Below, one piece after another: positions 26,563-29,025 of a stretch of DNA of 49,023 bases. Within the stretch, counting starts at the first letter, position 1, and the number at the start of each line of letters is the position of its first letter. The stretch covers positions 1-49,023 of the forward strand of contig JAQBPE010000264.1 of assembly GCA_028287685.1 (NCBI GenBank), in the 5' to 3' direction. The DNA comes from Cyanobacteria bacterium RYN_339 (GTDB lineage Bacteria > Cyanobacteriota > Sericytochromatia > S15B-MN24 > JAQBPE01). The position numbers and the translations under genes are program-made. The notes below the pieces were generated by a model. The model searched no databases. It was given only the letters and a program-made list of their open reading frames with translations, and was not told where the DNA came from.

Positions 26563-26955
26563 CTAGCTGCAGGCGTCCCGTACCGCGGCCACGATCGCGT
26601 CGGTGGGAGTCCCCGGCCCGAATACGGCGTTGACCCCAGCGGCCTGCAAGGCCGGGACATCCTCCGCGGGGATGATCCCGCCGCAGAACACCAGCACGTC
26701 GCCGGCCCCCTGTTCCTGGAGCTTGCGGCAGATCTCCGGCACCAGCGTCATGTGGGCGCCGGACAGCAAGCTCAGCCCGACGGCATCCACGTCCTCCTGG
26801 AGCGCGGCGGCGACGATGTCGTCCGGCTTCTGGTGGAGGCCGGTGTAGATGACCTCCATCCCGGCGTCTCGCAGAGCCCGCGCCACCACCTTGGCCCCGC
26901 GGTCATGTCCATCGAGGCCGGGCTTGCCGATCAAGACGCGAATTTTGCCTGCCAT
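26563..26955 (-). CDS. Stand-alone B12-binding subunit, methylmalonyl-CoA-mutase C-terminal type
   Basis: A 130-residue Rossmann-like cobalamin-binding domain as in the small subunit of methylmalonyl-CoA or isobutyryl-CoA mutase. It carries the DxHxxG signature ([12 protein letters not shown]), [10 protein letters not shown] and the nucleotide-tail loop FCGGIIP, all intact. The catalytic large subunit is not in this window, so the partner must be elsewhere. The start at 26955 ([13 protein letters not shown]) has GGAG upstream. A TACAAT -10-like hexamer lies at 26990-26995. Its 537-base upstream region is packed with CATG-centred hexamers, which suggests dedicated regulation, perhaps by the XRE protein at 27493. 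Confidence 0.92.
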
Positions 26956-26995: not shown

Positions 26996-27066
26996 GCAGC
27001 AACGGCTGAAATCGAAGTAAAAAACGGATCGTTGCAACACGCTGGTTACAGGTGTACGACTGCTTT

Positions 27067-27490
27067 GCATGCTAAAGCATGTCGGGCCTTTTCCACGGCC
27101 TGAAAGTCACTTGGTTCTACAAGCAGGCGGATATTACGTCACCCAGGTGGTTAGAAAAACCACTTGCTTCTACATGTGGGCATCCCACACGCATGTGCGA
27201 AACATGCAAGTTGCTTGTAGTTACATGCATCAGACCTGGAGCTGCCAAGGTGTCTCGCTTGTTAATGCATGTGAATCGGCATTATGTGAATGATGTAGGG
27301 TTGTGTCCGAATGTTTAAACATGCGGACCAGATTGAGCAACAATGGGAAACATGCAAATGACATGCAGGATTGATAAAAAATGGCTAAAGACTGCGTGGT
27401 GCAATGTTATATAGGCGCAGCCGCCGGGGCTTTGAATGGAAAGACGTTCTATATAGAGGGCCAGGTCTCCAAACGCCCCAATCGACATGT
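27067..27490. repeat. Array of 11 CATG-centred hexamers upstream of the B12-binding gene
   Basis: This 537-base gene-free stretch (26956-27492) is AT-richer than the rest of the window. It holds eleven RCATGY hexamers, mostly ACATGC or its complement GCATGT. CATG begins at 27068, 27078, 27173, 27192, 27203, 27224, 27268, 27320, 27351, 27362 and 27486. Neighbour distances are 10, 95, 19, 11, 21, 44, 52, 31, 11 and 124 bases, most of them close to multiples of 10.5. A hairpin CAGGTGGTT/AACCACTTG sits at 27144-27166. Short open frames exist but have no ribosome sites. I read it as an operator array; the binding factor is unknown. Confidence 0.65.
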
Positions 27491-27492
27491 CC

Positions 27493-27873
27493 TCAGTGCG
27501 ATATTTCGAAATCGCCGTAGGTTTGCCAGAGCGTCCGCAGTTTTGCGAGCAACATCATGCGATCGTTGTCCGGGATCTGGTCCGAATTCATCACGGCGTC
27601 GAAAAGCTTGTAATAGTAATCCTCTTCCCACCGTAGCTGCTTCTGAACGTCCGTCGTTGCTACACCTCGGACCATGGCGTCCAACGTCATGTAGTTCGTC
27701 TTCAACCCCTTGGCTAATTTCTCGAGGGTCATGGGGCGAGGCGCCTTCACCTGGCGACCGGACTCGATGCCGGCCAGGGTACCCAGGGGCAACTCGCAAA
27801 TAGTGGCCAAGTCCCGCTGGGAGAGCTTCAATTCTTTACGCCGTGCGGCGATATACAGTCGAAGGTCGTTCAT
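27493..27873 (-). CDS. XRE/Cro-type HTH regulator
   Basis: A 126-residue protein with an N-terminal HTH_XRE domain (residues 1-66: LRLYIAARRKELKLSQRDLATICELPLGTLAGIESGRQVKAPRPMTLEKLAKGL). The C-terminal 60 residues are helical (LRWEEDYYYKLFDAVMNSDQIPDNDRMMLLAKLRTLWQTYG) and probably form a dimer or effector domain. The ATG at 27873 is preceded only by AGAAAG, a weak site. Five CATG-centred hexamers lie in the 270 bases upstream of it and eleven downstream, before the B12-binding gene. Autoregulation plus control of that gene is the simplest model but is not shown by the sequence alone. Confidence 0.88.
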   Translation of the reverse strand: MNDLRLYIAARRKELKLSQRDLATICELPLGTLAGIESGRQVKAPRPMTLEKLAKGLKTNYMTLDAMVRGVATTDVQKQLRWEEDYYYKLFDAVMNSDQIPDNDRMMLLAKLRTLWQTYGDFEISH

Positions 27874-27949
27874 GTCCAAACTTTCTGCTTGTTTTACCAA
27901 GTGGCCCTGGAGGGCAACCAGGCCGATTGTAAAGCGGTATACGGGAAAA

Positions 27950-28123
27950 ACATGCGATGGTTATTTCCGAATGTAAATTGGTTGGTGTTTTGCATGTGTA
28001 CGCATGTTGTAGGCTCCCCCTGGACCGCTGTGGCAGCATCCATCGGGGAGCCCATGATTGTCAAGACATGCGGATGGAACACGCTATTTTCGCGATGTTG
28101 CCTTGCTGATTGTAATCACATGC
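27950..28123. repeat. Second array of five CATG-centred hexamers upstream of the XRE gene
   Basis: RCATGY hexamers with CATG at 27951, 27993, 28003, 28067 and 28119, all within the 270-base gap between the XRE gene and the YihY gene. Distances are 42, 10, 64 and 52 bases, each within about one base of a multiple of 10.5. Same motif as the array at 27067-27490. The gap is AT-rich and I see no small gene in it. Confidence 0.6.
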
Positions 28124-28143: not shown

Positions 28144-29025
28144 TCACCGCCCTGTAAGCACTCCAGGAGGGTCCAGAGGGGAGTGCTCGGGGCCGAGCGG
28201 GTGACCCATGCGAACTTCGTAGGAAACGCGGGATACCTCGGCCCCCATCAAGAAGAGCAGGGCCGACACATAGATCCAGAAGAGGAAGCCCACCATGCCC
28301 GAGAGCGATCCGTAGACCATGTCGTACCTGGCCATGTGGTCGAGGTAGTAGCCGAACAAGCGGCGGAGCGCTTCCCAGGCCAATGCGGCAGTTAGAGCGC
28401 CTGGCAGCACATCTCGGAGGTGCAGCCGGCGGTTGGGCAACACCAGGTAGAGCAGCGTCACGACAACGATTACCCCGAAGAAGGGCAGCACGCTTGCCAG
28501 GAAGAACAGGAACCCAGGCAAATCGGACGGAGAGTAATCGAAGTACGGCAACTTGTAACTGGTCAGGGCCCCCAGCAGGGCCAGCGCGATGGATGCGAAG
28601 ATGATCAGGATGCCGACGGAGAAGGCCATGGCCATGGCCAGCAGGTTCTCGCGTACCCATCCGCGGTCCGCCGGCACCTTCCAGATCACGTTCAGGGCCT
28701 GGCCCAGCGAGCTGAAGATGTTCTTGGCCGACCAGGTCAGCAGCAGGACGCCGAACAACGAGAACTCCCCGCGGTGCTGCATCACGCCTTTCAGGATGTC
28801 CGTCAGCACGACCGCCTGGAGGGGGAAGAGCTGCTGGGTGAAGATTTCGGCCTGAACCATCGTCTGCTCGGCCGTCAGGAAATGGCCCGCAACGGCCACC
28901 AGAAGCAGCAACAGCGGGAAGATCGAGAAGAAGACGAAGTAGCAAAGTCCGGCAGCGAGGTACGAGCAGTTGTCCGAGTTGAACGCCTGCACGACCCGCC
29001 AGATGAATCGCACGAATGAAAGCAC
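28144..29025 (-). CDS. YihY/BrkB-family inner-membrane protein
   Basis: A 293-residue protein with six hydrophobic segments and the family landmarks NCSYLAAGLCYFVFFSIFPLLLLLVA at the first helix, LLLTWSAKNIFSSLGQALNVIW, and the end YGSLSGMVGFLFWIYVSALLFLMGAEVSR. This is the UPF0761/YihY group, formerly annotated as ribonuclease BN. Its biochemical role is unsettled. The start is a GTG with AAGGAGG seven bases before it. It is divergent from the DUF167 gene. Confidence 0.92.
   Translation of the reverse strand: MLSFVRFIWRVVQAFNSDNCSYLAAGLCYFVFFSIFPLLLLLVAVAGHFLTAEQTMVQAEIFTQQLFPLQAVVLTDILKGVMQHRGEFSLFGVLLLTWSAKNIFSSLGQALNVIWKVPADRGWVRENLLAMAMAFSVGILIIFASIALALLGALTSYKLPYFDYSPSDLPGFLFFLASVLPFFGVIVVVTLLYLVLPNRRLHLRDVLPGALTAALAWEALRRLFGYYLDHMARYDMVYGSLSGMVGFLFWIYVSALLFLMGAEVSRVSYEVRMGHPLGPEHSPLDPPGVLTGR

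Follow-up and report, generated by a model that had tools for sequence, protein, structure and literature searches.

Helically phased arrays of probable operators on both sides of an XRE regulator gene point to a cooperative self-regulating switch in a non-photosynthetic member of the cyanobacterial phylum

In Cyanobacteria bacterium RYN_339, rows of short, operator-like elements on one face of the DNA helix lie to either side of a small XRE regulator gene. The gene was found in a window of 49,023 nucleotides, by which we mean the whole stretch of DNA that was analysed. These rows are kept in a related genus and, judged from sequence, they point to a cooperative switch through which the regulator would control its own gene. 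Specifically, we consider it probable that the adjacent XRE protein uses the arrays as its operators; it would bind them cooperatively on one DNA face, repress XRE and possibly bridge the gene. Operator spacing and helical phase have been kept between the two genera; the half-site core has shifted, and the inter-operator DNA is without detectable similarity.

The host appears to be a member of a non-photosynthetic, probably Sericytochromatia-like class within the cyanobacterial phylum. None of the 18 genomes of this class that were searched gave a psaA/psaB hit, and such hits were obtained in phylum-mates and in a Synechococcus control.

Density and helical phase of the hexamers

The non-coding DNA flanking the XRE gene (0.77 kb) carries 16 RCATGY hexamers where about 0.6 to 2 are expected, and 13 of the 16 are ACATGC or GCATGT. 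Mononucleotide shuffles yield an expectation of 0.7 and dinucleotide shuffles one of 2.1 (maximum 9 in 2,000), with the shuffled flank sequence itself including the motif. Background statistics were taken from 612 kb of stretches sampled from the same genome. Against the low-GC background of this genome, ACATGC occurs 13 times compared to an expected 0.21, and the density of RCATGY is 20.8 per kb in the XRE flanks versus 0.73 per kb. Because the count over the entire window is not enriched (65 observed, 58.5 expected), the high density is local to the XRE flanks.

The placement of the hexamers follows the turn of the double helix. At a period of 10.5 bp, neighbour distances have a mean cosine of 0.83, which was equalled by none of 5,000 random placements, and a scan of periods from 5 to 30 bp gives maximal phasing at 10.55. 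Strict half-sites phased at 10.5 bp yield R = 0.87 for the left array and R = 0.99 for the right array. Four extra copies of ACAAGC/GCTTGT are broadly in phase with the RCATGY set; the left flank holds three of them and the right flank the fourth.

A first-pass annotation of this DNA had reported the 16 hexamers and their helical phasing, and had placed the arrays upstream of a B12-binding gene and of XRE, both on the minus strand. Every one of the 16 copies was recovered in place, and the phasing and the gene placement likewise hold. What that list overlooked are the four in-phase ACAAGC/GCTTGT copies and a weak half-site described below. The annotation had also named three outcomes that would speak against it, namely equal density elsewhere, loss of phase under permutation and absence of the arrays at orthologous genes, and none of these was observed.

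Neither a genome-wide pattern search nor the 612 kb of sampled stretches revealed a comparably dense array elsewhere. Other triple CATG matches in the genome were dismissed, as most look coding by eye. A CATG cluster at G000:C371 5542-5579 (L051) was rejected as an array since it is a hairpin between convergent genes; its inverted repeat, ACATGCAAATTGCATG...CATGCAATTTGCATGT, gives a terminator-like hairpin that imitates a phased CATG array.

A pseudo-palindromic operator unit

When all sites are oriented as ACAWGC, a degenerate inverted half, [GA][CA][AT]TGT, emerges exactly 10 bp upstream as the sole strong partner signal. Half-site matching peaks at offset -10 alone when all 27 sites are used (z 7.5), and the same offset stands out in the relative's sites only, with strict neighbours excluded (z 7.2). 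Given that this partner half recurs at 10 bp, the hexamers are mostly the strong halves of a dyad, and the predicted functional unit is the pseudo-palindrome RMWTGT-N4-ACAWGC. Each unit usually combines one strong half with one degenerate half, the two being one helical turn apart, and the second halves are poor in units 27199, 27347, 27947 and 28009. The earlier description of a ‘CATG-centred hexamer’ was thus too narrow for the motif, whose core is ACAWGC inside a dyad and is mainly ACAAGC in the relative.

The exact pattern RMWTGT-N4-ACAWGC has five distinct copies in the 7-Mb genome, four of which reside at the XRE locus (Table 1), and the reversed-pattern control has no copy at all in the same genome. 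A position weight matrix (PWM) for the dyad, trained on the same sites that it scores, finds 0.1 matches per kb in the 612 kb background, and weak motif matches do occur elsewhere in the genome. Pseudo-palindromes with half-sites offset by 10, present on both flanks of the XRE gene, constitute the architecture of XRE/Cro-CI-type operators, with binding itself being putative.

Table 1. Coordinates of the operator arrays, their dyads and the adjoining genes in the window
Feature	Position	Strand	Basis or remark
Stand-alone B12-binding subunit, methylmalonyl-CoA mutase C-terminal domain type	26563..26955	-	TIGR00640 8.2e-50
Left operator array, located between XRE stop and B12-binding gene	27067..27366		PWM scan; phasing
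Left-array dyad centres	27074, 27116, 27169, 27199, 27220, 27264, 27316, 27347, 27358		PWM scan
Perfect dyad operator GCTTGT-agtt-ACATGC	27213..27228		Exact pattern and PWM
Dyad operator GAATGT-ttaa-ACATGC	27309..27324	+	Exact pattern and PWM
Isolated ACATGT adjoining XRE stop codon	27485..27490		Doubtful member: without good weak half, missed by PWM
XRE/HTH_3 regulator gene, 126 aa	27493..27873	-	ATG at 27873; start placed by ortholog alignment
Right operator array, XRE promoter region	27887..28123		PWM scan; phasing; positions conserved in G001
Right-array dyad centres	27894, 27947, 27999 (28009), 28063, 28115		Spacing 5-5-6-5 turns
Dyad operator GATTGT-caag-ACATGC	28056..28071	+	Exact pattern and PWM
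Dyad operator GATTGT-aatc-ACATGC	28108..28123	+	Exact pattern and PWM
BrkB-like membrane protein gene	28144..29025	-	PF03631 1e-55; ends at right array

Conservation of the arrays in a related genus

The arrays were compared with those of one family-mate, G001, which belongs to a different genus. The XRE ortholog of G001 is 56% identical and begins at the same Met, and the gene order (folD-type, LysM, B12-binding gene, array, XRE, array, DUF167-type) is syntenic with that of the window. The last of these, located beyond the right array in G001 and beyond the BrkB-like gene in the window, is a gene that we take to be of the DUF167 type. The BrkB-like gene separates the right array of the window from the DUF167-type gene, and the ORF list of G001 has none at that spot.

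An unbiased 6-mer enrichment ranks CAAGCA/ACAAGC at the top in G001, and therefore the core differs between the genera, being ACATGC in the window and having shifted to mainly ACAAGC in G001. The G001 arrays are also phased at 10.5 bp (p = 0.0013). No strong similarity between the intergenic DNA of the window and that of G001 was found by blastn; in the alignment with G001, the operator at 28056..28071 falls near GCTTGTcgagAGAAGT.

Upstream of the XRE start codon, dyad centres are located at 21, 74, 126 (136), 190 and 242 bp in the window and at 31, 86, 137, 200 and 243 (253) bp in G001. After a one-turn shift of 10-12 bp, five of the six positions agree within 2 bp, a match that has p = 0.0008 against phase-locked random arrays. 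In each of the two genomes, operators are most commonly 51-55 bp, or five turns, apart. For this class, which was selected after inspection of the data, 13 pairs were observed, a number reached in 0 of 5,000 phase-locked simulations, which predict 3.6. Taken by itself, the window's left array has 3 such pairs versus 1.7 expected and falls short of significance (p = 0.21, phase-locked null). Furthermore, the phases of the left and right arrays agree across the XRE gene to within about 1.3 bp in both genomes, assuming 10.5 bp per turn.

The start-proximal operator in G001, GCTTGTATAATAAAGC, includes a perfect TATAAT, and thus a dimer bound there should block the XRE promoter. No clear sigma-70 promoter was found at the XRE start in the window.

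Two genomes in all carry this XRE gene, each with arrays to its left and right, and no arrays of this motif surround divergent XRE homologs. Beyond G001, no XRE ortholog was found in the order, in viral contigs, in plasmids (tblastn, 1e-5) or in phages, and a GTDB scan for orthologs returned none except a Hellea XRE that matches in the HTH only. A sensitive many-query search of the intergenic regions for conserved small ORFs gave weak, scattered matches, none of them convincing.

The XRE protein and its gene neighbourhood

The protein contains an HTH_3 domain that exceeds the curated cut-off (Pfam PF01381, 4.7e-9). In a structure search with a predicted model, its N-terminal fold matches the DNA-binding domains of SinR, 434 Cro and P22 c2, with SinR (3zkc) giving a TM of 0.86 by target and an rmsd of 1.3. 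For the C-terminal helices, the search returned no convincing structural match. AlphaFold2 models these helices as a hairpin with a pLDDT of about 60-85 over most of its length and less at the extreme end; for the whole model, the pLDDT is 57 from a two-sequence alignment, which is poor, and 79 from a ten-sequence alignment. A TTG at 27900 offers an alternative start that is without counterpart in the G001 ortholog.

A set of XRE regulators (L056, L060-L062, L065, L066, L069) shares the C-terminal motif LDxPPxxRxWxFxxLE, and some order-mates encode several per genome. The C-terminus of the window XRE protein weakly resembles these regulators.

The B12-binding gene adjoins the left array on its downstream side, with a start (about 26955) placed by an AGGAG sequence and ortholog alignment. 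No phage or ICE genes were found among the scanned neighbours of XRE. Given this, and since searches of phage, plasmid and viral collections gave no match, we rejected the identity of a phage or ICE immunity repressor.

Proposed mechanism and alternative explanations

We propose that an XRE dimer would occupy each dyad, whose halves lie one turn apart, and that dimers on the same helical face might touch via their C-terminal helices to give steep cooperative occupancy. The operator nearest the start would cover the XRE -10 box, such that XRE would repress its own gene. Bridging between the downstream and upstream arrays may close the XRE gene into a short loop or a compact complex; the downstream array may also influence the promoter of the B12-binding gene. 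A further reading, which we hold as tentative and rather unlikely, is that on both sides of the gene XRE assembles into a defined higher-order complex, either a filament or a wrapped particle, that repeats every five turns (about 52 bp), with spacing and not site sequence as the conserved information. Phased AT-rich spacers, as expected for DNA wrapping, were not significant (p = 0.12).

The first-pass annotation had proposed that a cooperative XRE operator system regulates B12 metabolism. Its first part is well supported, because arrays accompany XRE in both genomes, are missing ahead of the B12-binding gene where order-mates lack an ortholog, and have an XRE-like dyad architecture. Its second part, which draws on position only, is not supported, and control of the B12-binding gene by the arrays has weak support. 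The left array could be a distinct operator of the B12-binding gene, which would make XRE a regulator of B12 metabolism, a possibility that we regard as doubtful. In both genomes this gene does have the array upstream of it, and in the window operators are overlapped by a weak promoter-like match on the minus strand (27309-27281). However, such matches are at chance level (1 found, 1.3 expected), the left operators are 119-403 bp from the B12-gene start codon in the window and 279-437 bp in G001, and no cobalamin riboswitch or other Rfam RNA was found in the region. Moreover, six order-mates that lack an XRE ortholog retain a close B12-binding homolog (66-75% identical in alignments), and no array is present upstream of it in any of the six, which together offer one stray ACATGC. 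Since these order-mates without XRE have no arrays at the gene, the arrays go with XRE and not with the B12 gene. Across the order this gene occurs without array or XRE, in one family beside mutase-like genes. It directly follows a mutase-like gene in three genomes of that family (G004, G005 and G007; L136, L134 and L133, respectively); the window and G001 have it as a detached gene that adjoins XRE.

Another protein, such as a nucleoid-associated or global regulator, might own the arrays, with the XRE gene being a mere neighbour or one target. The tie between XRE and the motif comes from sequence comparison, and weak motif matches exist elsewhere, but we judge this idea improbable given that no comparable dense array emerged from the genome-wide pattern search or the 612 kb sampled, that the sites flank XRE in both genomes and are absent where XRE is absent, and that a dyad of the TTGT-N4-ACAA type with halves 10 bp apart suits an HTH_3 dimer. 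Still less probable, and the least so of all, is a partition or tethering scaffold of centromere-like iterons with no role in transcriptional control. Short phased repeat arrays around a small DNA-binding gene are the layout of parC-type loci, and the paired arrays here do resemble it, but ParA, ParM or TubZ-like genes were not seen among the scanned neighbours, the gene context is chromosomal and the G001 operator overlaps a perfect -10 box. We give hardly more credence to the repeats being RNA structure, in the form of CATG-rich hairpins in a leader RNA, or debris of a tandemly duplicated 52-bp unit. Minus-strand RNA of the left array (27060-27380) folds better than shuffles (z -3.4), and 27109-27124 and 27162-27177 are similar in appearance. 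However, the spacers have no self-similarity at shifts of 40-67 bp (means 0.23-0.26), there is no Rfam match, phasing at 10.5 bp is a property of the double helix, and both dyad and phase persist in the relative, where the core is mainly ACAAGC in place of ACATGC. If the left array is transcribed, its folding is probably a by-product of the palindromic sites.

As operators of the XRE protein, the arrays would make the cooperation of dimers on spaced operators open to direct test with a single small protein and a 1-kb piece of DNA. They also provide a search rule for poorly studied bacteria, which is to look for phased degenerate dyads around an autoregulator.

Comparison with known systems

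Among the papers searched, none was a direct precedent for helically phased or five-turn XRE arrays. The first-pass annotation could match the arrays to no described operator, but described look-alikes do exist in RcoLS20 and EspR. Phage 186 CI is a repressor that, as an oligomer, wraps or condenses its operator DNA. Oligomers of the Helicobacter pylori repressor Fur likewise compact promoter DNA by wrapping or condensation (PMC5007355). These systems differ from XRE in belonging to unrelated families or in having other site spacing, and wrapping by XRE is speculative. SinR, 434 Cro and P22 c2 match XRE at the HTH only.

EspR of Mycobacterium tuberculosis has an N-terminal HTH and a C-terminal dimerisation domain, multimerises and loops DNA, and binds its own promoter at two flanking sites (PMC3315491). 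It is like XRE in its small two-domain plan and in self-promoter binding, which is putative for XRE. However, EspR is a nucleoid protein with hundreds of genomic sites and the half-site TTTGC, whereas the XRE sites are nearly confined to one locus. We rejected an EspR-type nucleoid-associated protein given the five distinct dyads in 7 Mb, four of them at the XRE locus, and a PDB sequence search with XRE up to E = 1 returned no EspR chain.

RcoLS20 from the Bacillus subtilis plasmid pLS20 also has an N-terminal HTH, and it controls its own gene through two cooperatively bound operators, in which an 8-bp motif occurs 11 times in mixed orientation (PMC4207663). The protein is a tetramer that forms a DNA loop, and a 5-bp insertion between the operators abolishes regulation (PMC4207663). 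Its operators, with clustered motifs, are 75 bp apart in one intergenic region of a plasmid, whereas the XRE arrays flank the gene in a chromosomal context and consist of dyads mostly 4-6 turns apart. Tetramerisation and looping have been demonstrated for RcoLS20 and are proposed here for XRE. We liken the two by their working, not by sequence, and in this respect RcoLS20 is the nearest system; like the XRE locus, its locus has several short motifs arranged in a pair of phased operators.
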